The notes beneath the pieces were generated by a model. The model was not told where the DNA came from and searched no databases. It saw nothing but the letters and a program-made list of their open reading frames with translations. This document shows positions 5,276 to 20,726 of a DNA stretch of 64,000 bases, piece by piece (within the stretch, counting starts at the first letter, position 1; the number at the start of each line of letters is the position of its first letter). The position numbers and the translations under genes were made by a program. This stretch comes from Cognataquiflexum nitidum. GTDB lineage: Bacteria; Bacteroidota; Bacteroidia; Cytophagales; Cyclobacteriaceae. The stretch spans positions 62,001-126,000 of the forward strand of contig NZ_JAKZAM010000004.1 of NCBI RefSeq assembly GCF_022538055.1, in the 5' to 3' direction.

Positions 5276-5992
5276 TTAGATTTCAAAGTATTTCATTTTT
5301 ACAGAAGCGTTTTTAAAACACATGCTGCACCAATAATCTCCTTCGATCAACAAGCTTTTGGTATACCAAGTATTAGTGTCGCTTGGCAATTTAGCAAAAT
5401 CTTGGAGTGTATTCAATTCATTTAGGTTATCCATCAACCCTGTTCCTTCAGCTTTTAAAATGGATTCTTTGATCGTCCATATTTTGAAGAATTGATTGAT
5501 AGGTTGTATTGATTTTTCAATAAAATCAATTTCATCAGGATGAAATGACATTTCAAATATAGATCGATAGTCAAAATCAGGATTAATTCTCTCTACATCA
5601 ATGCCACAGGGATCACCCGAAAAGGCAAAAACAAGCCAATCACCTGAATGCGAGGTATTGAAATGAATCTTTTCTTGATTCCTGATTTTTGGTTTGTTGA
5701 ATTCATTCAACTCAAACTCCACTGACTCGGGTTCATAACCGAGGTAGTATCCACAAAGGATTTTTTTCATAACGGAACTGGCAAGAAAACTGTATTTGTC
5801 CTGTTCTCTCGCAAATCTTTCTGATTTTTTTAACTCTTCGCCTGTTAATAATCCTGCATGCGGCAGGATTTTCTCCAAGTTATTAGCTATCCCAATCCGG
5901 ATTATATGAAGCTCATCCAATAGCGGAGAGGCTACGAATTTTTTCCAAACGGGATTGGTTTCTTGCCAATCAATGGATTTATTGAGGATCAT
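5276..5992 (-). CDS. 4'-phosphopantetheinyl transferase (Sfp-type)
   Basis: 238 residues. It shows the Sfp superfamily signatures: FNTSHSGDW, then CGIDVERI (magnesium-binding Asp and Glu) and the WTIKESILKAEGTG helix (W-x-x-K-E-x-x-x-K). The family moves the phosphopantetheine arm of CoA onto the conserved serine of carrier proteins. Its ATG (5990-5992) overlaps the stop codon of the thioesterase remnant upstream (5989-5991) as ATGA, implying translational coupling in the NRPS operon. The natural substrates are therefore the four PCP domains encoded upstream on the same strand. It appears intact although the preceding thioesterase is broken. Confidence 0.93.
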   Translation of the reverse strand: MILNKSIDWQETNPVWKKFVASPLLDELHIIRIGIANNLEKILPHAGLLTGEELKKSERFAREQDKYSFLASSVMKKILCGYYLGYEPESVEFELNEFNKPKIRNQEKIHFNTSHSGDWLVFAFSGDPCGIDVERINPDFDYRSIFEMSFHPDEIDFIEKSIQPINQFFKIWTIKESILKAEGTGLMDNLNELNTLQDFAKLPSDTNTWYTKSLLIEGDYWCSMCFKNASVKMKYFEI

Positions 5993-6324
5993 GAATCCGA
6001 TTTTTCATCAAGGACTTTTTGGATTTTTTCGGCTATTTCTTTCAAAATTTCAGTTTTTTTGAGAATAATGTCATGGTGTCCGCCAATATTTATCACCTTG
6101 ACTTTTTCAACAAATGAGGTCCATCCATAAAATTTTGGTTCTTCGATATAAGTTTCCATAATTTTTGCCCGTAATAAATATAAGGTGCCATAAAAATGAG
6201 GGACTAATTTATATTTATTTAATAAATAGGTATTATTTTTTGAAACTTTATTGAGGTAGTTTGTTGGTTTGTTCACTAATCGTGGATTAAACTTTGATTT
6301 AATAATGGAAAATATCAAATCCAT
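5989..6324 (-). pseudogene. C-terminal fragment of the thioesterase of the small NRPS
   Basis: 111 residues in frame with the preceding fragment (6328-6621) and separated from it by a single TGA at 6328-6330. It aligns without gaps to the last part of the intact thioesterase of the large NRPS (YLNKVSKNN against VLNRVAKNN; VEKVKVINIGGHHD against VEKVNVVHVSGHHD), and the lesion falls where the intact protein has an Arg. It keeps the C-terminal GHH motif that should supply the catalytic His. The ATG at 6324 is probably fortuitous. Its stop overlaps the start of the phosphopantetheinyl transferase. Decay or a sequencing error are both possible. Confidence 0.7.
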
Positions 6325-6327
6325 TTT

Positions 6328-6621
6328 TCATAAAAGATATCCTTTTTTCCTTCTTAAATATGCCCCAGGTTCATTTAAAAAAAAGTTTACTTTAGCTAGG
6401 ATAATATTTAAGATAAGGTTAATTTTTTCAAATGGTGAATGTTTTTCTTGGTAATCGAACGCAGCTGTATCAAATAGAATAAGTTTATTGACTTTTTTCC
6501 CCATTGATTGAAGCTGTTTGGCCATTTCATAAGCCACAATCCCCCCATAGCAATAGCCTGATAGATTATAAGGGCCATCCGGATTTTTTTCAACCATAAG
6601 TGAAATATAGTACTCAGCCAT
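6328..6621 (-). pseudogene. N-terminal/nucleophile part of the broken thioesterase, with Cys in place of the usual Ser
   Basis: The frame is open from about 6717 (YLAKFIDTEQPIYGF...) but has no start codon until 6621. It is the continuation of the small NRPS after a one-base shift near 6712. It aligns to the thioesterase of the large NRPS; the nucleophile elbow reads GYCYGG instead of GYSFGG, a Ser-to-Cys change. It ends at a TGA (6328-6330). As it stands it cannot make a complete thioesterase unless the shift and the stop are sequence errors or are recoded. Confidence 0.7.
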
Positions 6622-6710
6622 TCCTTCAAGAGATATGTCAGTTGCCTCCTTCCCATCCAGACCTTTTGGCTGAAAGCCATAAATGGGCTGTTCGGTGTCA
6701 ATGAATTTTG

Positions 6711-9395
6711 CTAAATATAATAAATAGATGCCGAGGAACCCCCACCATGAACCATATATAATGGCGGTTTGCTTCTTGAGGTTTTTACATCTAATAATGA
6801 ATTCAAACCTACCTGATTTTGGTTGATGTTCTCAATTGCATTGGCGAGTTCCGCTATACTCGGGTATTTGAATATCAGGTTAATGGTAAGTTTTAATCCA
6901 CTTTCTTTTTCCAAAGCTGACATTACTTTTACCGCCAGCAGGGAATGTCCCCCAAGGGCAAAGAAGTCATCGTGGATGCCTATCCGGTCCAAACCGAGGA
7001 TTCTCTGCCAGATCGCGGCAAGCTGTTTTTCCTGCTCATTCCTTGGTTCTGTATATCCGGCGGTCACCATATCCCCGATTCCGACATCGGGCAGTGCTTT
7101 TCTGTCGGTTTTGCCGCTGAGTGTGAGGGGTAGTTTTTCGAGCTTTACCCATAGAGCCGGCACCATGTATTCAGGTAATTTTGACCTGAGGAATGCACTG
7201 ACGGATTCTTTGTCGAAAGTCCCGTCGCAGATGACATATCCCACGAGTCTTTTGTCACCCTGTCCGTTTTCTCTTGCCATGACTACCGCCTGCTTTACAT
7301 TGGGATGGAGTACCAAGACGGATTCGATTTCACCGAGCTCGATGCGGTATCCCCTGATTTTGACTTGATCGTCCATCCTGCCCAGATACTCTAAATTACC
7401 GTCCCCTCGCCATCTGCCCAAGTCTCCAGTTCTGTATAATCGTTCCTCAGGCCTGTAGGGGTTTTCTATAAATTTCTCCCTGGTGAGCTCTTCCCGGTTT
7501 AGATATCCCCTTGCCAAACCTACTCCGCCTATGCAAATCTCCCCGACAGTACCATAAGGAACGAGGTGGTGGGTGGGATTTAAGACGTAAAGCGCTGTGT
7601 TGTCAATCGGTTTGCCTATTGGAATGCTCAGTTCCTCAGCTGTCTCACAGGCATAGTAACTCACATCTATGCTCGCTTCCGTAGGACCATAGAGATTCAT
7701 TAGACTTACAGCCGGAAGCAATTCTTTGAACCTCTTTAACTGTTCTGCTTTTAAGGCTTCTCCACTGGTATATACCTGCTTTAGACTGCTTAGCTTCAAA
7801 ATGTTTTCTGTTGAGCTGCCCAAAAATTCTAAAAAGGCTTCAAGCATACTTGGAACAAAATGTAACACCGTAACCTGTGCGGCTTCTATTGTCGAAACAA
7901 TCTTTTCGGGTTGTTTCTCTCCCCCAGGTTCCAACATACTCACAGAGGCCCCCTGCAGGGACCACCAAATCAGCTCCCATACCGATACATCGAAAGTAAA
8001 AGTGGTCTTTTGCAGGATACAATCTTTTTCTGTCAAAGCATAAGACTTCTGCATCCAAGCCAATCTGTTGACCAGGCCCCTATGCTCCAGCATACAGCCT
8101 TTGGGTTTACCCGTTGAACCTGAGGTGTAAATCACGTACATCAGGTTCTCGGGACTTATCCGGGTTACAGGATTTGTGTTTGGATAGTTGCGTTCATTTA
8201 TGGCTTTCCTGAATTCTTCCAGTTCAGCCTGATTGATAACTAATTTCAACCTCGCATCTTCTTTGATAAAATCCTTTCGCTGGTCAGGAAACTCAGGATC
8301 TATCGGTACATAGGCACCACCGGATTTGATGATCGCCAATATGCCTATCACCATCCACTCACTGCGCTCCAATTCTATTCCTATCAGATCATCGGTCTGA
8401 ATATTGTATCTTTCAATCAGATAATGTGCAAACTGGTTCGACCGTTCATTCAGCTCTTTGTAGCTTAGCTCTTTATCCCTGAACAATAATGCCACTGCAT
8501 CGGGAGTTTTATTCACCTGTTGCTCAAATAAGTCCACGATTGTCTTCTCGTGGGGGTATTCCGCTTCCGTAGCATTTAAAGTTTCTAACAGAAGTGTTCT
8601 TTCCTCAGTAGGAATAATGTTTAAGAGATCAAGGTTTTGTGAAGGTTGGGCACGAATGGATTCAAGAAATGTCACAAAATGGGATACCATCCTATTTATG
8701 GTTTTAGAGCAATAGAAATCCTTGTCAAAGGTGATACGGCCTTCAATTTTTTCTTCATTTTCTACAAAGCAGAACAGTAAATTTGAAATAAAATCCTCAA
8801 GGTTTACTTTTGAGATCAGATTTTCGATACTGAGATCTTGTTTTTTTTGATAGTCGAAAATGACGGGGAAAAGTAACCTCAAATCCTTTTCATTCTTTTT
8901 TCCTAATAAGGAAATTAGCTGATCAACAGAGATTCGATTATTGGAATTGGCTTCAGCTAAATCGATCTCTAATTTTTGAACAAACTCATCAAAATTTTGG
9001 CTGCTATCTATTTTGGAACGAATGGGAAGAAAATCCAAAAAGAAGGCTTTTTCATTCTCCGAGTTTGGATTCTCAATTACTGTTTCCTTGAAGTTGGTGC
9101 CAATACAAAAATCATTTTGACTGCTGTATCTATAAAGTAAGACCTTTAAAGCTGCCAACAGGACTAAAGGATGTGAGGGCTTTGATTCGGAAAAGTGGGA
9201 AACAATATTGTCAAGAAGAGACCTGTCTATCAGGAAATTGATGGTATTGATTTCTGTTCTATCGGTCAGAGACCTCGAATGATCCTTGGGCAGTTGTAAA
9301 TCTTCGATTCCTTCAAGCTTTTTAATCCAATAATCTTTGATTAAAAAGGGAGACTCCGTCGCTGATTGGGTGATTTGCGATTTTGTTAATAGCAT
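6711..9395 (-). CDS. Small NRPS: half condensation domain, Ser-type A domain, PCP, truncated thioesterase
   Basis: 894 residues. Residues 1 to about 265 match only the C-terminal lobe of a condensation domain, beginning at DYWIKKLEG, with no HHxxxDG motif. The A domain (about 285-760) has YTSGSTGKPKG near residue 428, the NLYGPTE, YRTGDLGRW and LSGKTDRKAL motifs, and a manually read code DVWHYSLIDK, close to the serine code DVWHFSLIDK. A PCP follows (LGGHSLLAVK near 815). The frame then enters the thioesterase (PPLYMVHGGGS) and stops at 6711, where a one-base shift breaks it. The A-domain DNA appears identical to module 2 of the large NRPS, while the N-terminus resembles module 1 and the PCP/TE resembles module 3. 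Most likely a recombined, partly decayed paralogue. Confidence 0.88.
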   Translation of the reverse strand: MLLTKSQITQSATESPFLIKDYWIKKLEGIEDLQLPKDHSRSLTDRTEINTINFLIDRSLLDNIVSHFSESKPSHPLVLLAALKVLLYRYSSQNDFCIGTNFKETVIENPNSENEKAFFLDFLPIRSKIDSSQNFDEFVQKLEIDLAEANSNNRISVDQLISLLGKKNEKDLRLLFPVIFDYQKKQDLSIENLISKVNLEDFISNLLFCFVENEEKIEGRITFDKDFYCSKTINRMVSHFVTFLESIRAQPSQNLDLLNIIPTEERTLLLETLNATEAEYPHEKTIVDLFEQQVNKTPDAVALLFRDKELSYKELNERSNQFAHYLIERYNIQTDDLIGIELERSEWMVIGILAIIKSGGAYVPIDPEFPDQRKDFIKEDARLKLVINQAELEEFRKAINERNYPNTNPVTRISPENLMYVIYTSGSTGKPKGCMLEHRGLVNRLAWMQKSYALTEKDCILQKTTFTFDVSVWELIWWSLQGASVSMLEPGGEKQPEKIVSTIEAAQVTVLHFVPSMLEAFLEFLGSSTENILKLSSLKQVYTSGEALKAEQLKRFKELLPAVSLMNLYGPTEASIDVSYYACETAEELSIPIGKPIDNTALYVLNPTHHLVPYGTVGEICIGGVGLARGYLNREELTREKFIENPYRPEERLYRTGDLGRWRGDGNLEYLGRMDDQVKIRGYRIELGEIESVLVLHPNVKQAVVMARENGQGDKRLVGYVICDGTFDKESVSAFLRSKLPEYMVPALWVKLEKLPLTLSGKTDRKALPDVGIGDMVTAGYTEPRNEQEKQLAAIWQRILGLDRIGIHDDFFALGGHSLLAVKVMSALEKESGLKLTINLIFKYPSIAELANAIENINQNQVGLNSLLDVKTSRSKPPLYMVHGGGSSASIYYI
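7018..8622. repeat. 1.6-kb near-perfect repeat, copy 1 (A domain of the small NRPS)
   Basis: This stretch matches 15226-16830 at a constant offset of 8208 bp, with no difference seen in the lines I compared. It runs from the A-PCP linker back to the start of the A domain. Flanking DNA differs at both edges (for example GATCGCGGCA against GAGGGCTGCA just before 7018), which is the pattern left by gene conversion. Confidence 0.85.
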
Positions 9396-9698
9396 GATTT
9401 ATTTTTATTTGTCACTAAAAACGTTTCAAATCTTTATTCGAAACTACTATTCGTTTGTAGGTAATATAAGCGTTTTCGATATCCGAGCCAATTTTTATGA
9501 TTCCTTTTGATAAAGCATTCCTTTTTTACCTAGAATCCAATCAATGTTTTTTGGACAACTTAAGTCTAATTGAATGAATTTCATCTGACAGTGGAATTGA
9601 ACAATTTCCAGTCCGGTGTGATCTCCTTCCATTCAATTTGAATATTTAACTTCATGATGAGGAGTTTATTTTCTAAATTCTGACTCTTAATTTTAATT
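9396..9698. other. Spacer between the oxidoreductase and the small NRPS
   Basis: About 303 bp, AT-rich, with no reading frame of note. The last bases before the small NRPS start resemble those before the large NRPS start (AAATAAATCATG), so the immediate leader was duplicated together with the gene. A separate promoter for the small NRPS may lie here, but I see no convincing Bacteroidota -33/-7 pair. Confidence 0.4.
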
Positions 9699-11027
9699 TC
9701 AAAATTTTGGAAATTCCCATGGAGTTCTGTTTGTTGGTGTAATCAATCCATTGGCTTTTTTACTGTTTGTGAACATTTGTTTTTTGTCATCCCAATCCAA
9801 AATCGGCTCATTTGTCCTTCCTGAGATATTGGGTATGTGGGCATACAATGCAGCAATTCTGCCTGTTTCGGGTGGACAAATAGGAGTCTCTCTGGATTTA
9901 ATGCAATCAATGAAATTTTTGACATGCAGGTTATGGGATTCACTTCCTTCGGTAAATAGGAACGCTTCGGCCTTTGCCTCTTTTTTGTCAGAGTCCCATT
10001 CAGGATATACCTGAAAAGATTTTCTGTCAGCTACAATTGTGGCATTTTCACCGATGAAAGCGATGCCATAAGATTTCCCATATGGCCCTTGCTGGATCCC
10101 TGCAGTCATATCCCAGTTGATTGTAAATTCTTCATTGGCGTAGATGACTGACATAGTATCAAACGTTTCCCTGCTTCTGACATCAGTTGAAGAGTTGACT
10201 GCCGTGGTTATTACTCTCAAAGGGGCTTTAGGATTTTGCATTGCCCAAATGCCCATATCCAAAAGGTGTACGCCCCAATCAGTCATCAAACCTCCACCAT
10301 AATCCCAAAAATGTCTCCAACTTCCATGAAAGCGGGTTGGATTAAAGGGGCGCTTCGGCGCAGGTCCAAGCCAAAAATCGTAATCCACACCTGAAGGAGC
10401 AAGACTGTCACCGGCCGGAATGGCACCTGTTCCATAATTGAAATTGGACCAAATATTTACTTTTCGGATTTTTCCAATATCTCCGTTTTTAATCATTCGG
10501 ACAGGCTCGCTAAAGGAATAGCCACTCCTTTGCTGTTGACCAACTTGAACAACACGCTTGTAATAGGCAGCCGCCTCAACCATGATACTGGATTCCCCGA
10601 TTGAATTTGCTAAAGGCTTTTCGACATAGACATCTTTTCCTGCAGCACATGCGGCAACCATAATGAGACAATGCCAATGGTCCGGAGTGCCAATTATGAC
10701 AGCATCTATATCTTTTTGCTCCAAAACCTTCCTGAAATCTTTGAATGGTTTTGGGTCCTGTCCAAAAGTTTCTTTGACTTCTTTGATTCTCTTAGAAAGA
10801 ACATTTTCATCCACATCACAAATCGCCACACAATTCACTCCCGGCATATTCAGATGGTGCCTCAAAATACTGAATCCATGACCATTGCAACCAATCAGAG
10901 CCACGTTGACTTGGTCACTTGGTCTCACCGTTTTTGCCCAAACTTTAGATGGTATGAAGCTGAATAAGCCAATACCTACTGTGGTAGTAAGAGTTTTCTC
11001 AATAAATTTTCTTCTCGTCGGTTTCAT
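9699..11027 (-). CDS. Tat-exported Gfo/Idh/MocA family oxidoreductase
   Basis: 442 residues. The N-terminus has a twin-arginine signal (TRRKFIEKT followed by a hydrophobic stretch to SKVWA), so the enzyme should be exported folded with its cofactor. A Rossmann motif (ALIGCNGHG) and the catalytic-loop motif VEKPLANS define the Gfo/Idh/MocA family; MTDWGVHLLDM is typical of the Bacteroidota/Planctomycete secreted branch. The family oxidises or reduces sugars and related polyols with NAD(P). It sits between two NRPS genes on the same strand, 91 bp after the large one. A periplasmic sugar oxidoreductase has no obvious place in peptide assembly, so it may be a passenger or act on an exported product. 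Confidence 0.9.
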   Translation of the reverse strand: MKPTRRKFIEKTLTTTVGIGLFSFIPSKVWAKTVRPSDQVNVALIGCNGHGFSILRHHLNMPGVNCVAICDVDENVLSKRIKEVKETFGQDPKPFKDFRKVLEQKDIDAVIIGTPDHWHCLIMVAACAAGKDVYVEKPLANSIGESSIMVEAAAYYKRVVQVGQQQRSGYSFSEPVRMIKNGDIGKIRKVNIWSNFNYGTGAIPAGDSLAPSGVDYDFWLGPAPKRPFNPTRFHGSWRHFWDYGGGLMTDWGVHLLDMGIWAMQNPKAPLRVITTAVNSSTDVRSRETFDTMSVIYANEEFTINWDMTAGIQQGPYGKSYGIAFIGENATIVADRKSFQVYPEWDSDKKEAKAEAFLFTEGSESHNLHVKNFIDCIKSRETPICPPETGRIAALYAHIPNISGRTNEPILDWDDKKQMFTNSKKANGLITPTNRTPWEFPKF

Positions 11028-11117: not shown

Positions 11118-14100
11118 TCATGAACCGGGTTTTTCATCAAGGACCTTTTGGATTTTTTCAGCCATTTCTTTTAAAATCTCAGGTTTGTGAAAGAGGTTGT
11201 CATGGTGGCCCGAAACATGGACAACATTGACCTTTTCTACAAAAGGAACCCATCCGTAATATTTTGGCTCTTCAACATAAAACCCCTGGGTTTTTGCGCG
11301 GAATAAAACCATCGGGCCATGGTAAGGAACCAATTTATAGCTCCTTAAGATATCGGCATTATTTTTTGCGACTCTATTCAGGACGCTTCTCGAATCGTCC
11401 AAAAATTTCGGATCAGGTTTCAACTTCATTTTTACTAAAAGTTTGTCCCTTTTTCTTTTGTATGACCTTGTTTTCTTTTCCAAATAACCCTGTGGTTCAT
11501 GCAAAACAAAGTTGATCTCGTTAAGAATTATTTTTGATCTGAGTTTTAATTTATCAAAAGCAGAAAGTTTCTCGTAGGAGTCCAAAGATGATGTGTCAAA
11601 CAAAATAAGCTTCCCGACTTTTCTCCCCATAGCATGAAGTTGTTGGGCCATTTCATAAGCGACATAGCCGCCAAAGGAATAGCCGGATATATTGTATGGG
11701 CCGTATGGATTCTGATCGATCATCAGGGAAATATAATATGAGGCCATTTCTTCAAGTGAGCTGTTAGGAACTTCTTTCCCATCTAACCCTTTGGGCTGAA
11801 AACCATAAATAGGTTGGTCGTCTTCAATATATTTCGCTAGACTATAATAGATAGAAACCGCCGAACCTACTCCATGTACGATATATAATGGAGGTTTAGA
11901 ACCACTTGGTTTGATCGCCACGAGGGAATTCCAACCTGCCTGATTTTGATTGCTATTTTCAATTGCCTTTGCGAAAGCAAAAATGTTAGGAAATTTGAAT
12001 ATCAGGTTAATGGGAATTTTTGAACCAATTTCTTTTTCCAAGGCAGATATTACTTTTACAGAAAGTAAGGAATTTCCCCCAAGAGCGAAGAAGTCATCAT
12101 GTATACCTACCCTTTCCCAACTGAGGATTCTTTGCCAGATGACAGCAAGTTTTTTTTCCAGTTCAGAACGTGGTTCGATATAATCGGGTGTAACCATATC
12201 TCCAATACTTAAATCAGGAAGAGCCTTTCTGTCTATCTTTCCATTGCTGGTTAGTGGCAATTTCTCCAACTTTACATAAAAGTTCGGCACCATATATTGT
12301 GGCAGCTTTTCCATTAAGTAGGCCTTCATCTCCTCAGCCGTAGCCATTCCTGTGCTATAGGCTATCAGCTCTTTGTCTGTTGTGTTTTTTAGCAATCTGG
12401 CGAGCACTACCCCTTGTTCCACTTTTAGGTGGCTTGTCAATACCTGTTCAATCTCTCCCAATTCTATCCTGTTCCCCCTAATCTTTACTTGGTCATCCAT
12501 CCTACCCAAATACTCCAAATTACGGTCCTTGCCCCACTTACCTAAGTCTCCTGTTCTATACAACCGCTTCCCCGGCTTGTATGGATTCTCTATAAATTTC
12601 TCTTTGGTAAGATCATCTCTGTTTAGATAACCTCTTGCTATGCCAACACCTCCTAAGCAGATTTCTCCAACAACACCATAAGGAACCAAGTGTTGGGAAG
12701 AGTCTAAGAGATATATTTCTGTATTTTGTATAGGTGTGCCTATGTAAGGCTCATTGTCAACACCTATCTCTTTTACTATACATCCAACAGTTGCTTCTGT
12801 CGGGCCGTATTCATTGTATATTCTGCTACCCTCATTTTTACGCAAATATTCGATTAGTTCCTTGGTTAATGCTTCACCTCCTAATACAAATACCTTGCTC
12901 CTAGCTTCTCGCAGCGTTTGCTCCTCTATAAGTTTAATGTGTGCGGGGGTTAATTTTATCCATCCATTCTCAGGATTTAAAACTATCTCTTTTAACTGTC
13001 TTGATAAATCCTCGAATTGATTATGTACGTGTAGTGCCTTCCCTTGTGTCAGTGCACCGAATAAAGAAGTTATTGTAAAATCAAAGGATAAACTGCTGAA
13101 CAAATCGACTTTACTATAACTAATGTCTCTACTGTATTCGGATGTCCAATCCAAGTAATTATTCACCCCTCCATAATTCAATACACATCCCTTTGGATTA
13201 CCCGTTGAACCAGAGGTATAAATCACATATATTACATCAGTTAACTTTATCGTTACATTGGGTCTATCTATTGAATACAAAGTATCTTGTAATTTAAATG
13301 CATCCCATTCTTCTTCATCAATTAATAATTTACAACCGCTGTCCTGTTTAATAAAGGCAATGCGCTCTTTCGGATAGTCAATATCAATAGGCACATACGC
13401 GGCTCCAGTTTTTAAAACTCCCAAAACGCTCAAAACCATTCTAGCACTGCGTTCTAACCTTATCCCTACTAAATCCCCATTCACCACTCCGTGTTTTTCA
13501 ATCAGATAATGTGCAAACTGGTTCGACCGTTCATTCAGCTCTTTGTAGCTTAGCTTATCATCCCTGAACAATAATGCCGTTGCATCAGGAGTTTTATTCA
13601 CCTGTTCCTCAAATAAGTCCACGATTGTCTTATCTTGGGGGTATTCAGCTTCTGTAGCATTTAAAGTTTCTAACAGAAGTGTTCTTTCCTCAGTAGGAAT
13701 AATGTTTAAGAGATCAAGGTTTAAAGATGGATTTTCAACGATTGATTTCAGGAGAAGGATAAAGTGGCTTACGAAACGTTCCATTGTTTCAGGCCTATAC
13801 AGGTCTGTATTGTATTCTACAATTCCTGCAATGCCCTTTTCCATTTCTGTGAGTTCGAAAGTCAGGTCAAACTTCGAAGTGAAATTCTCGTAAGTCTCAT
13901 CCGACACCAAGACATCATCCAGACGGACCTCATTTTTGGGAACATTCTGCAAAACGAATAAAACCTGGAATACAGGATTTCTGCTCAGGTCTCTTTTTTG
14001 TCTAAGTGATTCCACCACCATTTCAAAGGGGATTTGTTGGAATTCGAAAGACTCCAGCGTAGTGGTCCGGATATCTTTAAGAAGTTCTGTAAAGGTCATG

Positions 14101-17100
14101 TCTCCCCTTAGATTGGATCGAAGAGCCAAGGTGTTGACAAAAAACCCAATGAGATCATCCGTTTCTTCGCTTTCTCTACCTGCCACAGGTGTGCCAACGC
14201 AGATATCCTCCTGACCACTATACCGATAAAGAAGTGTTTTGAATGCTGCCAGCAATGTCATAAAAAGAGTTGTCTGATGACTTTGTCCCAATTCCTTCAG
14301 TTGGGATACCACGGAATCATCGATTGAAAAACGGTAACTATTCCCGTTATTACTCTGAATCGGCGGCCTTGCAAAATCGGTAGGAAGCTGAAGTGGAGCG
14401 ACGTTCTGGAGTTTGGCTTTCCAGAAGTCAATCTTGGGCTGTATTGAATCACTGTTCAGGAAATTTCTTTGCCATATGGCATAATCAATATATTGGAGTG
14501 GCAGGGGAGAAAGCGGTATTGGTTTTCCGTTTGTGATTGCCTGATAGCATTCGGTGAGTTCTTTTCTCAAGATATTGACAGACCATCCATCAGAGGCTAT
14601 GTGGTGCATGGTGATCACCAGACAATAATCTCCTTGGGCTTTGGTGATCAGACAGGCCCTCATCATGTGGTCATGGGCGAGGTCAAAGGGTATCCTGATC
14701 AGTCTTGTGATTTCATTTTTGAGGAGTTCAGGATCAGGCAATTCCATCCTGTCCAGCCTCCAGAGACCTTTGCCGAGAACGGTTTGGCAATCGTTCCCGT
14801 CTTTCTCGGTGATGACGGTTCTGAGGACTTCATGGCGGTTGACAATGGTTTTCAGTACTTCTTCCAAGGCACGGATATCGAGCTTTCCCCGGATGTTATG
14901 GATCAGCGGAATGTGATACTGTATACTTCCTTCCAACTGATGGATAAACCAAAGACTTTGTTGATTGTAAGATAGTGGGATGGTTTCAGGCCTCGCCACA
15001 ACCATTGGTACTTGGTTGGAGAGGACATTGTCTCTGGAAATCAGGATTAGGGCAAGCTGAGCCACAGTAGGAGCAGAGAAGAAGTCCAGAATGCTGATTT
15101 CGGAACCCAGTTCTTTCCTGATTGATGCAACGGCACGCATTGCTAGCAAGGAATGTCCACCTAATGCAAAGAAATCATCGTGGATGCCTATCCGATCCAA
15201 ACCGAGGATTCTCTGCCAGAGGGCTGCAAGCTGTTTTTCCTGCTCATTCCTTGGTTCTGTATATCCGGCGGTCACCATATCCCCGATTCCGACATCGGGC
15301 AGTGCTTTTCTGTCGGTTTTGCCGCTGAGTGTGAGGGGTAGTTTTTCGAGCTTTACCCATAGAGCCGGCACCATGTATTCAGGTAATTTTGACCTGAGGA
15401 ATGCACTGACGGATTCTTTGTCGAAAGTCCCGTCGCAGATGACATATCCCACGAGTCTTTTGTCACCCTGTCCGTTTTCTCTTGCCATGACTACCGCCTG
15501 CTTTACATTGGGATGGAGTACCAAGACGGATTCGATTTCACCGAGCTCGATGCGGTATCCCCTGATTTTGACTTGATCGTCCATCCTGCCCAGATACTCT
15601 AAATTACCGTCCCCTCGCCATCTGCCCAAGTCTCCAGTTCTGTATAATCGTTCCTCAGGCCTGTAGGGGTTTTCTATAAATTTCTCCCTGGTGAGCTCTT
15701 CCCGGTTTAGATATCCCCTTGCCAAACCTACTCCGCCTATGCAAATCTCCCCGACAGTACCATAAGGAACGAGGTGGTGGGTGGGATTTAAGACGTAAAG
15801 CGCTGTGTTGTCAATCGGTTTGCCTATTGGAATGCTCAGTTCCTCAGCTGTCTCACAGGCATAGTAACTCACATCTATGCTCGCTTCCGTAGGACCATAG
15901 AGATTCATTAGACTTACAGCCGGAAGCAATTCTTTGAACCTCTTTAACTGTTCTGCTTTTAAGGCTTCTCCACTGGTATATACCTGCTTTAGACTGCTTA
16001 GCTTCAAAATGTTTTCTGTTGAGCTGCCCAAAAATTCTAAAAAGGCTTCAAGCATACTTGGAACAAAATGTAACACCGTAACCTGTGCGGCTTCTATTGT
16101 CGAAACAATCTTTTCGGGTTGTTTCTCTCCCCCAGGTTCCAACATACTCACAGAGGCCCCCTGCAGGGACCACCAAATCAGCTCCCATACCGATACATCG
16201 AAAGTAAAAGTGGTCTTTTGCAGGATACAATCTTTTTCTGTCAAAGCATAAGACTTCTGCATCCAAGCCAATCTGTTGACCAGGCCCCTATGCTCCAGCA
16301 TACAGCCTTTGGGTTTACCCGTTGAACCTGAGGTGTAAATCACGTACATCAGGTTCTCGGGACTTATCCGGGTTACAGGATTTGTGTTTGGATAGTTGCG
16401 TTCATTTATGGCTTTCCTGAATTCTTCCAGTTCAGCCTGATTGATAACTAATTTCAACCTCGCATCTTCTTTGATAAAATCCTTTCGCTGGTCAGGAAAC
16501 TCAGGATCTATCGGTACATAGGCACCACCGGATTTGATGATCGCCAATATGCCTATCACCATCCACTCACTGCGCTCCAATTCTATTCCTATCAGATCAT
16601 CGGTCTGAATATTGTATCTTTCAATCAGATAATGTGCAAACTGGTTCGACCGTTCATTCAGCTCTTTGTAGCTTAGCTCTTTATCCCTGAACAATAATGC
16701 CACTGCATCGGGAGTTTTATTCACCTGTTGCTCAAATAAGTCCACGATTGTCTTCTCGTGGGGGTATTCCGCTTCCGTAGCATTTAAAGTTTCTAACAGA
16801 AGTGTTCTTTCCTCAGTAGGAATAATGTTTATGAGATCAAGGTTTAAAGATGGATTTTCAACGATTGATTTCAGGAGAAGGATAAAGTGGCTTACGAAAC
16901 GTTCCATTGTTTCAGGCCTATACAGGTCTGTATTGTATTCTACAATTCCTGCAATGCCCTTTTCCATTTCTGTGAGTTCGAAAGTCAGGTCAAACTTCGA
17001 AGTGAAATTCTCGTAAGTCTCATCCGACACCAAGACATCATCCAGACGGACCTCATTTTTGGGAACATTCTGCAAAACGAATAAAACCTGGAATACAGGA

Positions 17101-20100
17101 TTTCTGCTCAGGTCTCTTTTTTGTCTAAGTGATTCCACCACCATTTCAAAGGGGATTTGTTGGAATTCGAAAGACTCCAGCGTAGTGGTCCGGATATCTT
17201 TAAGAAGTTCTGTAAAGGTCATGTCTCCCCTTAGATTGGATCGAAGAGCCAAGGTGTTGACAAAAAACCCAATGAGATCATCCGTTTCTTCGCTTTCTCT
17301 ACCTGCCACAGGTGTGCCAACGCAGATATCCTCCTGACCACTATACCGATAAAGAAGTGTTTTGAATGCTGCCAGCAATGTCATAAAAAGAGTTGTCTGA
17401 TGACTTTGTCCCAATTCCTTCAGTTGGGATACCACGGAATCATCGATTGAAAAACGGTAACTATTCCCGTTATTACTCTGAATCGGCGGCCTTGCAAAAT
17501 CGGTAGGAAGCTGAAGCGGAGCGACGTTCTGGAGTTTGGCTTTCCAGAAGTCGATTTTACTCTGGATTGCATCACTGTTGAGGAAATTTCTTTGCCAAAT
17601 AGCATAGTCAATGTACTGAATGGGCAGAGGGGGCAGTGAACCCTGTATTCCGTTGAAGATGGACTGATAGCATTCGGTGAGTTCCTTTTTCAGGATGTTT
17701 GCAGACCATCCGTCGGAGGAGATGTGGTGCATGGTGATCACCAGACAATAATCGCCTTTGGTTTTGGTGATCAAGCATGCCCTCATCATGTGGTCATGGG
17801 CGAGGTCGAAAGGTGTTCTTATCAGTTCGGAAATTTCATTGTCAAGTAGTTCCGGATCAGGTAAATCCCATCTGTCCAGCTTCCAGATATCTTTGCCGAG
17901 AACGGTTTGGTAATAATTGCCGTCTTTCTCTGTGATGACGGTTCTGAGGACTTCGTGGCGGTTGACAATGGTTTTAAGGGCTTCTTCCAGGGCTAGTATG
18001 TCGAGCTTCCCCTCGATTTCAAGGATCAGTGGAATATGGTATTGGATGCTTCCTTCGAGCTTATGAATGAACCAGAGGCTCTGCTGATTGTAGGAAAGGG
18101 GAATGTTTTCAGGCCTTGCCATGGGTTGCGGAGCAAAACTGGAGGCCTGGCCGCTTCGGGACTGGAGTATCAGGGCAAGCTGTTCAACCGTGGGTGCTGA
18201 GAACAGTTCACGGATCGAAAGTTCTGCCCCCAAATCTTTTCTGACTGTTGCGACGGTCCGCATCGCTAGCAGGGAATGTCCCCCAAGGGCAAAGAAGTCA
18301 TCGTGGATGCCTATCCGGTCCAAACCGAGGATTCTCTGCCAGATCGCGGCAAGCTGTTTTTCGAGGTCATTTCTTGGTTTAGTATATTCGACATTCCCCA
18401 TATCTGCGTAACCGACCTCGGGCAGTGCCTTTCTGTCGATTTTCCCGCTGAAGGTGAGGGGGAGTTTTTCGAGCTGAAGCCAAAGGGCGGGGACCATATA
18501 TTCAGGAAGTTTTGACCTGAGGAATGCACTGACGGATTCTTTGTCGAAAGTCCCGTCGCAGACCACATATCCCACGAGTCTTTTGTCACCCTGTCCGTTT
18601 TCCTTTGCTATGACCACTGCCTGCCTCACTCCGTGGTGGAGGAGCAGGACGGATTCGATTTCGCCGAGCTCGATGCGGTATCCCCTGATTTTGACTTGAT
18701 CGTCCATCCTGCCGAGGTATTCGATGTTTCCGTCGTGAAGCCACCTGGCAAGGTCACCTGTGCGGTACATCCTTCCACCGGACACGTTGCTGAAGGGATC
18801 GGGAAGGAATTTTTGGGAGGAAAGTTCAGGTCTGTTGAGGTAACCCCGTCCGACTCCTTTCCCCCCGATGCAGAGTTCACCCGGGATCCCGACAGGGTTT
18901 AGGATTCCATCTGAGGATAGGATGTAGATAGCAGTATTGTCAATGGGTTTCCCGATGGCAACCTTTTGGCCGATCTCCATTTTTTTAAAGGTTGACCAGA
19001 TAGTTGTTTCGGTTGGACCATACATGTTCCAAAGTGTGCCTATTCCCACAAGAGTATTTTTCAATTCCTCACCGAGGGCTTCTCCACCGACGAGCATTTT
19101 GATATTTTGTGGATTTTTCCATCCTGAATTGAGTAACATCTGCCAACCCGAAGGCGTTGCCTGCATGTGCGTAGGACGGACTTCTTCCAGTTTTTTGGAA
19201 AGGCTGAAGCCATCCATGGCAATTTCCCTGCTTGCCAAGAATACCCTGCCACCATTGATAAGGGGAAGAAAAAGCTCAAGATAAAAGATGTCAAAACTAA
19301 AAGTAGTGACCGAGAGTAGACTTGAATTAGCATCGAATTCTACATTTTTCGACATACTTGCCAAGAAGTTTGCCACATTCTGGTGCTCTATCATTACACC
19401 TTTGGGCTTTCCTGTAGAACCTGAGGTATAGATGATGTAGGCAAGGTTATCGGGTAATAGTGAATTTAGGATTGCTTCTGACGGCATCCTCAGGATTGAC
19501 TCCATTTCTTTGTCCACAACCACAAGGCTTATTTCACTACCGAAATTGTGTTCAGTTTTGGAAGAGCAAATGACAAAATCTGCCTTTGTATCTTGGACCA
19601 TATAATCGATCCTATCTTTGGGTAATCCAGGATCGATGGGGACATAGGCCCCACCTGATTTGAGGATTCCAAAGATGCCTATTACCATCTCCAGAGACCG
19701 GTCTATACAGATCGGAACAAGGCTTTCAGGTTGGAGTCCGTTTCTGGTCAGATAATGAGCAAGGTGATTGGATTTGATATCCAGGTCCTTGTATGAAAGC
19801 TGTTCGCCTTCAAACTCAACTGCAATTGCATATGGCGTTTTGACGACTTGGCTTTCAAATAAATCTAAGATTGTTTTGCCTTTGGGTAGAGGGGAGAAAG
19901 TATCATTAAATGATTTCAGAAGTTGGAATTCTTCCTCTATGGGAATAATGTTTAAGAGACCAATGTTTTGGGAAGCTTGGGCATGAATGGATTCAAGAAG
20001 TTTGACAAGATGAGATACCATTCTATTTATGGTTTTAGAGCAATAGAACTCCTTGTCAAAGGTGATACGGCCTTCAATTTTTTCTTCATTTTCTACAAAG

Positions 20101-20726
20101 CCAAACAATAAAGTTGAATTAAAATTTTCAAGGTTTATTTTGGATGATTGGTTAAGGTCTTCTAAATCAGTATTTTTTTGATAATCCAAAATGACTGTAA
20201 AAAGTATGCTTAAATCCCTTTTGTTCTGTATTCCTAATGAAGTAATTAATTGATCAACAGAGATTTGATTGTAGGAATTGGCTTCAGCTAAATCGATCTC
20301 TAATTTTTGAACAAACTCATCAAAATTTTGGCTGCCATCTATTTTTGAACGAATGGGAAGAAAATCCAAAAAAGAGGTTTTTACAATCTCCGAGTTTGGA
20401 TTCTCAATTACTGTTTCCTTGAAGTTGGTGCCAATACAAAAATCATTTTGACTGCTGTATCTATAAAGTAAGACCTTTAAAGCTGCCAACAGGACTAAAG
20501 GATGTGAGGGCTTTGATTCGGAAAAGTGGGAAACAATATTGTCAAGGAGAGACCTGTCTATCAGGAAATCGATGGTATTGATTTCTGTTCTATCGGTCAA
20601 AGACCTCGAATGATCCTTGGGCAGTTGTAACTCTTCGATGCCTTCAAGCTTTTTAATCCAATAATCACTGATTAATTGAGAGGAATTGGTCGCTGATTGG
20701 GTATTTGGCGATTTTGTTAATAGCAT
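11118..20726 (-). CDS. Three-module nonribosomal peptide synthetase (half C-A-PCP, C-A-PCP, C-A-PCP-TE)
   Basis: 3202 residues. Order: C-terminal lobe only of a condensation domain (about 1-270, no HHxxxDG); A1 (about 290-770); PCP1 (LGGHSLL near 815); C2 (HHISSDG near 1000); A2 (YTSGSTGKPKG near 1470); PCP2 (near 1855); C3 (HHIASDG near 2040); A3 (YTSGSTGNPKG near 2508); PCP3 (LGGNSLLS near 2878); thioesterase (GYSFGG near 3018, GHH near the end). Manual specificity codes are A1 DILQLGMIWK (glycine-like), A2 DVWHYSLIDK (serine-like) and A3 DFTKVGEVGK (Asn/Asp-like); all three keep the A10 lysine. There is no epimerisation, methylation or reductase domain. Both full C domains look like LCL type. 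Predicted product: a tripeptide Gly-Ser-Asn/Asp, released as acid or ring. The gene is first on the minus strand and probably leads an operon reaching the phosphopantetheinyl transferase. Confidence 0.93.
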   Translation of the reverse strand: MLLTKSPNTQSATNSSQLISDYWIKKLEGIEELQLPKDHSRSLTDRTEINTIDFLIDRSLLDNIVSHFSESKPSHPLVLLAALKVLLYRYSSQNDFCIGTNFKETVIENPNSEIVKTSFLDFLPIRSKIDGSQNFDEFVQKLEIDLAEANSYNQISVDQLITSLGIQNKRDLSILFTVILDYQKNTDLEDLNQSSKINLENFNSTLLFGFVENEEKIEGRITFDKEFYCSKTINRMVSHLVKLLESIHAQASQNIGLLNIIPIEEEFQLLKSFNDTFSPLPKGKTILDLFESQVVKTPYAIAVEFEGEQLSYKDLDIKSNHLAHYLTRNGLQPESLVPICIDRSLEMVIGIFGILKSGGAYVPIDPGLPKDRIDYMVQDTKADFVICSSKTEHNFGSEISLVVVDKEMESILRMPSEAILNSLLPDNLAYIIYTSGSTGKPKGVMIEHQNVANFLASMSKNVEFDANSSLLSVTTFSFDIFYLELFLPLINGGRVFLASREIAMDGFSLSKKLEEVRPTHMQATPSGWQMLLNSGWKNPQNIKMLVGGEALGEELKNTLVGIGTLWNMYGPTETTIWSTFKKMEIGQKVAIGKPIDNTAIYILSSDGILNPVGIPGELCIGGKGVGRGYLNRPELSSQKFLPDPFSNVSGGRMYRTGDLARWLHDGNIEYLGRMDDQVKIRGYRIELGEIESVLLLHHGVRQAVVIAKENGQGDKRLVGYVVCDGTFDKESVSAFLRSKLPEYMVPALWLQLEKLPLTFSGKIDRKALPEVGYADMGNVEYTKPRNDLEKQLAAIWQRILGLDRIGIHDDFFALGGHSLLAMRTVATVRKDLGAELSIRELFSAPTVEQLALILQSRSGQASSFAPQPMARPENIPLSYNQQSLWFIHKLEGSIQYHIPLILEIEGKLDILALEEALKTIVNRHEVLRTVITEKDGNYYQTVLGKDIWKLDRWDLPDPELLDNEISELIRTPFDLAHDHMMRACLITKTKGDYCLVITMHHISSDGWSANILKKELTECYQSIFNGIQGSLPPLPIQYIDYAIWQRNFLNSDAIQSKIDFWKAKLQNVAPLQLPTDFARPPIQSNNGNSYRFSIDDSVVSQLKELGQSHQTTLFMTLLAAFKTLLYRYSGQEDICVGTPVAGRESEETDDLIGFFVNTLALRSNLRGDMTFTELLKDIRTTTLESFEFQQIPFEMVVESLRQKRDLSRNPVFQVLFVLQNVPKNEVRLDDVLVSDETYENFTSKFDLTFELTEMEKGIAGIVEYNTDLYRPETMERFVSHFILLLKSIVENPSLNLDLINIIPTEERTLLLETLNATEAEYPHEKTIVDLFEQQVNKTPDAVALLFRDKELSYKELNERSNQFAHYLIERYNIQTDDLIGIELERSEWMVIGILAIIKSGGAYVPIDPEFPDQRKDFIKEDARLKLVINQAELEEFRKAINERNYPNTNPVTRISPENLMYVIYTSGSTGKPKGCMLEHRGLVNRLAWMQKSYALTEKDCILQKTTFTFDVSVWELIWWSLQGASVSMLEPGGEKQPEKIVSTIEAAQVTVLHFVPSMLEAFLEFLGSSTENILKLSSLKQVYTSGEALKAEQLKRFKELLPAVSLMNLYGPTEASIDVSYYACETAEELSIPIGKPIDNTALYVLNPTHHLVPYGTVGEICIGGVGLARGYLNREELTREKFIENPYRPEERLYRTGDLGRWRGDGNLEYLGRMDDQVKIRGYRIELGEIESVLVLHPNVKQAVVMARENGQGDKRLVGYVICDGTFDKESVSAFLRSKLPEYMVPALWVKLEKLPLTLSGKTDRKALPDVGIGDMVTAGYTEPRNEQEKQLAALWQRILGLDRIGIHDDFFALGGHSLLAMRAVASIRKELGSEISILDFFSAPTVAQLALILISRDNVLSNQVPMVVARPETIPLSYNQQSLWFIHQLEGSIQYHIPLIHNIRGKLDIRALEEVLKTIVNRHEVLRTVITEKDGNDCQTVLGKGLWRLDRMELPDPELLKNEITRLIRIPFDLAHDHMMRACLITKAQGDYCLVITMHHIASDGWSVNILRKELTECYQAITNGKPIPLSPLPLQYIDYAIWQRNFLNSDSIQPKIDFWKAKLQNVAPLQLPTDFARPPIQSNNGNSYRFSIDDSVVSQLKELGQSHQTTLFMTLLAAFKTLLYRYSGQEDICVGTPVAGRESEETDDLIGFFVNTLALRSNLRGDMTFTELLKDIRTTTLESFEFQQIPFEMVVESLRQKRDLSRNPVFQVLFVLQNVPKNEVRLDDVLVSDETYENFTSKFDLTFELTEMEKGIAGIVEYNTDLYRPETMERFVSHFILLLKSIVENPSLNLDLLNIIPTEERTLLLETLNATEAEYPQDKTIVDLFEEQVNKTPDATALLFRDDKLSYKELNERSNQFAHYLIEKHGVVNGDLVGIRLERSARMVLSVLGVLKTGAAYVPIDIDYPKERIAFIKQDSGCKLLIDEEEWDAFKLQDTLYSIDRPNVTIKLTDVIYVIYTSGSTGNPKGCVLNYGGVNNYLDWTSEYSRDISYSKVDLFSSLSFDFTITSLFGALTQGKALHVHNQFEDLSRQLKEIVLNPENGWIKLTPAHIKLIEEQTLREARSKVFVLGGEALTKELIEYLRKNEGSRIYNEYGPTEATVGCIVKEIGVDNEPYIGTPIQNTEIYLLDSSQHLVPYGVVGEICLGGVGIARGYLNRDDLTKEKFIENPYKPGKRLYRTGDLGKWGKDRNLEYLGRMDDQVKIRGNRIELGEIEQVLTSHLKVEQGVVLARLLKNTTDKELIAYSTGMATAEEMKAYLMEKLPQYMVPNFYVKLEKLPLTSNGKIDRKALPDLSIGDMVTPDYIEPRSELEKKLAVIWQRILSWERVGIHDDFFALGGNSLLSVKVISALEKEIGSKIPINLIFKFPNIFAFAKAIENSNQNQAGWNSLVAIKPSGSKPPLYIVHGVGSAVSIYYSLAKYIEDDQPIYGFQPKGLDGKEVPNSSLEEMASYYISLMIDQNPYGPYNISGYSFGGYVAYEMAQQLHAMGRKVGKLILFDTSSLDSYEKLSAFDKLKLRSKIILNEINFVLHEPQGYLEKKTRSYKRKRDKLLVKMKLKPDPKFLDDSRSVLNRVAKNNADILRSYKLVPYHGPMVLFRAKTQGFYVEEPKYYGWVPFVEKVNVVHVSGHHDNLFHKPEILKEMAEKIQKVLDEKPGS
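13710..14393. repeat. C-domain repeat, copy 1 (module 3 condensation domain)
   Basis: This matches 16833-17516 at an offset of 3123 bp, exactly 1041 codons or one C-A-PCP module. A single change at 14394 against 17517 is followed by about 30 more matching bases before divergence. It encodes the acceptor lobe and C-A linker of the condensation domain. It indicates internal homogenisation of modules 2 and 3. Confidence 0.8.
15226..16830. repeat. 1.6-kb near-perfect repeat, copy 2 (A2 of the large NRPS)
   Basis: Partner of 7018-8622. It covers module-2 A-domain coding sequence. Identity ends where the large NRPS enters the A-PCP linker on one side and the C-A linker on the other. Confidence 0.85.
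16833..17516. repeat. C-domain repeat, copy 2 (module 2 condensation domain)
   Basis: Partner of 13710-14393, one module period (3123 bp) away. The first difference on the left edge is AAG against ATG at 13709/16832. Confidence 0.8.

Follow-up and report, generated by a model that had tools for sequence, protein, structure and literature searches.

What peptide does the large nonribosomal peptide synthetase (NRPS) of Cognataquiflexum nitidum at 11118-20726(-) release, and how did its locus come to its present form? The window, a stretch of 64,000 nucleotides of contig NZ_JAKZAM010000004.1, holds at this position a single unbroken open reading frame with an ATG start, encoding 3202 aa (NRPS1), in which Pfam recognizes Condensation, AMP-binding, AMP-binding_C and PP-binding stretches three times each and a Thioesterase domain once, in the layout halfC-A(Gly)-T-C-A(Ser)-T-C-A(Asn)-T-TE. 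The three-module NRPS proposed in the preliminary description is thereby confirmed, and its repeated C-A-T units with AMP-binding, PP-binding and condensation domains are those of a type I modular NRPS. All features given below with window coordinates lie on the minus strand. The condensation domains of module 2 (16791-18107) and module 3 (13668-14981) carry the catalytic HHxxxDG motif as HHISSDG and HHIASDG, the serine-containing carrier motifs read LGGHSL, LGGHSL and LGGNSL, and the terminal thioesterase (11121-11906, assigned by Pfam) has its Ser nucleophile in GYSFGG and a His in GHHDNL and is apparently a complete Ser-type enzyme. The named NCBIfam NRPS equivalogs among the best 25 matches all scored below their cut-offs, and the product names aureusimine, enterobactin and solanimycin were rejected on this ground. 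The best sequence match in the PDB is LgrA, the linear gramicidin synthetase, which has the A-T-C-A-T architecture in common with NRPS1 but which we take to differ from it in its formylated starter and long peptide product.

The pocket codes were extracted again by aligning the A domains with GrsA (1AMU), the sequence of which was checked against PDB 1amu; residue 331, at which the MAFFT alignment has a gap in all four A domains of the window, was read from the YGPTE motif. This alignment returned exactly the codes extracted earlier, namely DILQLGMIWK for A1 (18414-19871), DVWHYSLIDK for A2 (15291-16748) and DFTKVGEVGK for A3 (12210-13625). The first is given as a Gly code in PMC12283262, and the second differs at positions 299 and 330 from the Ser codes DVWHLSLVDK and DVWHMSLVDK that appear there, which are of the same DVWH-SL-DK type. 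For A3 no relative with more than 53% identity was found among the best-scoring candidates per genome in 196 genomes of the family and 395 of the class, and its specificity therefore is without a close characterised anchor. We take its code to stand for Asn rather than Asp, presumably favoured by the Glu at position 322, and the Ser code was in part assigned by the same kind of judgement. Of the Gly-Ser-Asn(Asp) sequence predicted earlier, codes and module order are in agreement with Gly, Ser and Asn, Asn being likelier than Asp at the third position, where Asp is possible.

NRPS1 starts with a condensation domain that covers only positions 194-455 of the PF00668 profile (residues 1-272, 19911-20726), corresponding to the C-terminal lobe, and no HHxxxDG motif was found in it; the equivalent half domain of a second synthetase in the window, NRPS2, covers positions 195-455. 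A divergently oriented DUF2911 gene starts 200 bp upstream of NRPS1, too short a distance for a hidden N-lobe. Since the half domain is a C-terminal lobe lacking HHxxxDG, an N-acyl starter step is not expected. Accordingly built starter modules are known: NRPS1 does not have the complete N-terminal condensation domain with HHxxxDG of starter-C lipopeptide synthetases, but a partial one without the catalytic lobe, fused to A-T, and resembles in this the thermoactinoamide synthetase ThdA, for which an N-terminally truncated, probably inactive C* domain in the starter module is described (PMC7253712). ThdA differs in that two trimodular proteins of another lineage make a hexapeptide of hydrophobic residues (PMC7253712). 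A possible influence of the truncated domain on the choice of A1 is discussed in the same report, and by analogy the half domain of NRPS1 could influence the choice of its own A1.

The half domain is found at the start of all synthetases at this locus (12 of 12, relatives included), where its sequences form two clades, and in none of six other NRPS proteins from other loci, some of which are cut by contig ends. Its dN/dS ratios of 0.28-0.41 (eight pairs) compare with 0.12 and 0.17 for full condensation domains (two pairs) and 0.09 for the thioesterase (one pair), showing that the half domain is under purifying selection and is kept, but loosely, more weakly than a full condensation domain or the thioesterase. 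An AlphaFold model of it has low confidence (mean pLDDT 58.8), and its Foldseek matches are condensation domains, an agreement that holds at the level of the fold only. Such conservation raises the question why each enzyme of the locus would start with a catalytically dead lobe.

On balance NRPS1 is probably an ordinary linear NRPS that releases free Gly-Ser-Asn and is encoded at a rapidly recombining locus. Briefly, in the order of action that we infer, the half-C lobe would pack on A1 without condensing, unacylated glycine on T1 would start synthesis, the two following condensation domains would add L-Ser and then L-Asn, and the Ser-type thioesterase would release the free linear tripeptide, presumably by hydrolysis, the carriers being armed by a phosphopantetheinyl transferase encoded further downstream. 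A free linear tripeptide would be the simplest product because of the half-C start and the apparently complete Ser-type thioesterase. As proposed earlier, the peptide may serve as a small signal or a protease inhibitor or may form a ring, uses and forms for or against which the analysis gave no argument. As an enzyme NRPS1 belongs to a known kind of NRPS, and the added interest lies in its swapped, lineage-specific locus and in the His codes of its relatives. A literature search for nonribosomal peptides of Cyclobacteriaceae surfaced, among the records returned, only a study of egg-collar microbiota, and a search for biosynthetic gene clusters of Aquiflexum found none.

NRPS1 had been described as standing alone, without tailoring domain, transporter or regulator next to it. 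Its isolation does not hold, as a broken sister synthetase and a phosphopantetheinyl transferase accompany it and the locus is conserved in sister species. The sister, NRPS2 (6711-9395, 894 aa), is by domains and code a halfC-A(Ser)-T protein that ends within the first residues of a thioesterase. A frameshift lies near 6714, and the remainder of the thioesterase (5989-6710) is a pseudogene, its Cys motif GYCYGG standing in a shifted frame that an in-frame TGA (6330-6328) interrupts. Over 1701 bp the A-T block of NRPS2 and module 2 of NRPS1 share 99.35% identity, and the two half domains are 89% identical. NRPS2 would thus be a collapsed tandem copy in which halfC-A(Ser)-T was kept, the thioesterase was lost and recent homogenisation with NRPS1 module 2 took place. 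The end of the thioesterase frame overlaps the start of a gene for an Sfp-type 4'-phosphopantetheinyl transferase (PF01648, 5276-5992), which has no other match in the C. nitidum genome at 1e-10. Ahead of NRPS2, at 9474-9655, lies a remnant of the N-terminus of such a transferase (tblastn 1.1e-9 with the transferase of Aquiflexum sp. TKW24L, G151), and a clearer remnant is found at the equivalent place in that relative. These remnants suggest a tandem duplication of an NRPS-transferase pair.

Between the two synthetases a Gfo/Idh/MocA-family oxidoreductase with a Tat-like N-terminus is encoded (9699-11027, assigned by Pfam), an insertion common to one relative. It was considered as a tailoring enzyme and rejected, since its 93% identical orthologue occurs only in Aquiflexum sp. 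TKW24L and elsewhere paralogues of at most 45% identity are found; it is probably a bystander. NRPS2, the transferase and the oxidoreductase are on the same strand as NRPS1, contrary to the earlier picture of the neighbourhood, which stands in so far as the search of neighbour genes turned up neither a transporter nor a regulator. MbtH dependence of the locus was considered and set aside, a gene for an MbtH protein being absent from all eight genomes of the three genera discussed below.

How stable is this locus among relatives? Matches to the NRPS at 1e-50 occur in 62 of 196 genomes of the family. Close matches to the half domain (at least 51% identity) are found in six other genomes, those of C. 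aquatile (G064), Aquiflexum sp. TKW24L, Cognataquiflexum rubidum (G172), Aquiflexum lacus (G001), Mariniradius saccharolyticus AK6 (G026) and G085. A GTDB-wide pattern scan gave 38 loci, six at 51-72% identity and the other 32 at 22-34%; the six close ones belong to the five named species, the scan did not return the C. nitidum genome and no match was assigned to G085. Altogether the syntenic locus is present in seven of eight genomes of the genera Aquiflexum, Cognataquiflexum and Mariniradius. The eighth, G121, has an empty site, in which the DUF2911 gene is followed 129 bp later by the transferase and the NRPS is absent (L054 16876-18327).

The peptides predicted from the codes vary from genome to genome: X-Gly-His in C. 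aquatile, X-Gly-His plus X-Ser in Aquiflexum sp. TKW24L and A. lacus, Gly-Ser-His plus Ser-X in G085, X-Gly-His-Gly plus a mono-module His protein in C. rubidum, X-Gly-His-Gly in M. saccharolyticus, and Gly-Ser-Asn plus the broken Ser protein in C. nitidum. Here X stands for the code DALQTGLITK, which has no match among the codes in the main text of PMC12283262. The four-module proteins of C. rubidum and M. saccharolyticus have an insert after the His module, which in C. rubidum reads as an E-like domain, the TIGR01720 match being below the cut-off and obtained on a cut piece. The mono-module protein of C. rubidum, built as half-C-A(His)-T-TE, has a Cys motif in its thioesterase and is encoded ahead of the four-module synthetase (L044 6247-9684).

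The module 3 code of the main synthetases is DSALIAEVWK in all six relatives with the locus and the Asn code in C. nitidum. According to profiles of identity per 20 residues, the C. nitidum thioesterase from about residue 2920 is 70-100% identical to those of Aquiflexum sp. TKW24L and C. aquatile, A3 is mostly 10-60% identical to theirs, and up to about residue 2400 the module 3 linker between C and A shows 85-100% identity with the module 2 linker of C. nitidum itself. The difference is local and puts the replaced segment approximately at 12087-13529 (residues about 2400-2880), comprising A3 and part of T3. A donor of the Asn module was sought in the family and class genomes, with nothing above 53% identity. 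By parsimony, with six relatives against one, the exchange would have gone from His to Asn, placing an Asn-code module 3 where the relatives have a His-code one. More generally, A(-T) segments may have been exchanged between the repeated C-A linkers and carrier domains, generating the diversity of the locus. A-domain substitution has been put forward as a primary route of NRPS diversification, and as in the natural cases described, whole or partial A domains seem to be exchanged here independently of the condensation domains (PMC7486941). Unlike in those cases, the exchange concerns a single syntenic locus of Cyclobacteriaceae, at which modules have also been lost, mono-module derivatives occur and one genome has an empty site. 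If the codes are right, a single chromosomal site displays module exchange, loss and copying with clear boundaries and could serve as a guide for domain swapping.

The thioesterases of the locus fall into two classes. NRPS1 and the main synthetases of the six relatives have GYSFGG, and the companions with two modules or one, i.e. those of G085, Aquiflexum sp. TKW24L, A. lacus and C. rubidum (G085b, G151b, G001b, G172s) as well as the broken NRPS2, have a Cys motif, GYCFGG or GYCYGG. The Cys thioesterases of obafluorin and sulfazecin biosynthesis form strained rings. A similar Cys region that aligns with that of the companions is present in the thioesterase of AB3403 (PDB 4zxh), a four-domain, single-module NRPS from another organism, Acinetobacter. 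AB3403 presumably differs from the enzymes here also in having a full condensation domain.

A free N-terminal amine together with His at position 3 constitutes the ATCUN motif, which binds Cu(II) and Ni(II). It could therefore be imagined, as a tentative and rather doubtful alternative, that the module-shuffling synthetases of Aquiflexum, Cognataquiflexum and Mariniradius make nonribosomal ATCUN copper or nickel ligands, X-Gly-His or Gly-Ser-His, that the companion Cys-thioesterase synthetases make Ser-containing dipeptides, and that the replacement of the His module by an Asn module left C. nitidum with a weakly binding or repurposed tripeptide. The code DSALIAEVWK, present at module 3 of all six relatives' main synthetases, is published as a His code in PMC12283262, and the half-C start throughout the relatives predicts no N-acylation, so that His as third residue after an unblocked first one is expected in six of six relatives. 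C. nitidum itself, however, carries Asn at this position, the first residue X lacks an assignment, and two relatives have in addition an E-like domain and a Gly module in fourth place. Moreover, the search of flanking genes brought up no transporter or regulator for metals, nor any other metal gene linked to the locus. Among the papers listed by a literature search on nonribosomal peptides, ATCUN and copper, none appears from its title and the beginning of its abstract to describe such a natural product. If the relatives did make X-Gly-His or Gly-Ser-His, these would be very short nonribosomal copper or nickel ligands, and if this reading were true as a whole C. nitidum would be a natural experiment in which a metallophore function was changed by one domain swap.

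Less probable still is a product other than the free tripeptide, either because the thioesterase cyclises or oligomerises it or because NRPS2 supplies a seryl-carrier in trans. The chemistry of the thioesterase is not readable from sequence, and NRPS2 retains an intact half-C-A-T with A-T nearly identical to module 2. On the other hand, both synthetases start with a non-catalytic half domain, and a thioesterase is or was part of each of them, the one of NRPS2 carrying two disabling changes; moreover, a cyclic tripeptide is strained. Decay of the locus in the C. nitidum lineage to a point where NRPS1 is no longer productive would fit the broken sister gene and the complete loss of the NRPS in G121, yet it appears improbable for a 3202-aa open frame in which the checked core motifs are present and of which the thioesterase has a dN/dS of 0.09 against Aquiflexum sp. 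TKW24L.

Just left of the window, on the NRPS strand, a complete ebo-like operon from EboA to EboF is encoded (L049 4603-11537; gene names after PMC5133447 and PMC6282210). That it exports or modifies the peptide is very unlikely. In favour of such a role, the operon shares the NRPS strand and is syntenic with it in the two nearer genera, and in Nostoc ebo is described as moving scytonemin precursors to the periplasm (PMC6282210), but G121 keeps ebo without the NRPS, and in M. saccharolyticus the NRPS is present with EboD on another contig. Neither the ebo operon nor the DPP-IV gene was retained as a cluster member, both being kept in G121. An ebo operon is also found close to an NRPS, a distant relative of about 30% identity, in G031 and G102 (L056 and L058), both from a different genus, with conserved genes for proteins of about 130, 332 and 130 aa in between; this proximity may be due to chance. 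C. nitidum has another NRPS locus on contig C36 (L050 660-11536), which encodes two proteins, one of 2225 aa with A-T and one with the domains C-A-T-TE and a Gly-like code.
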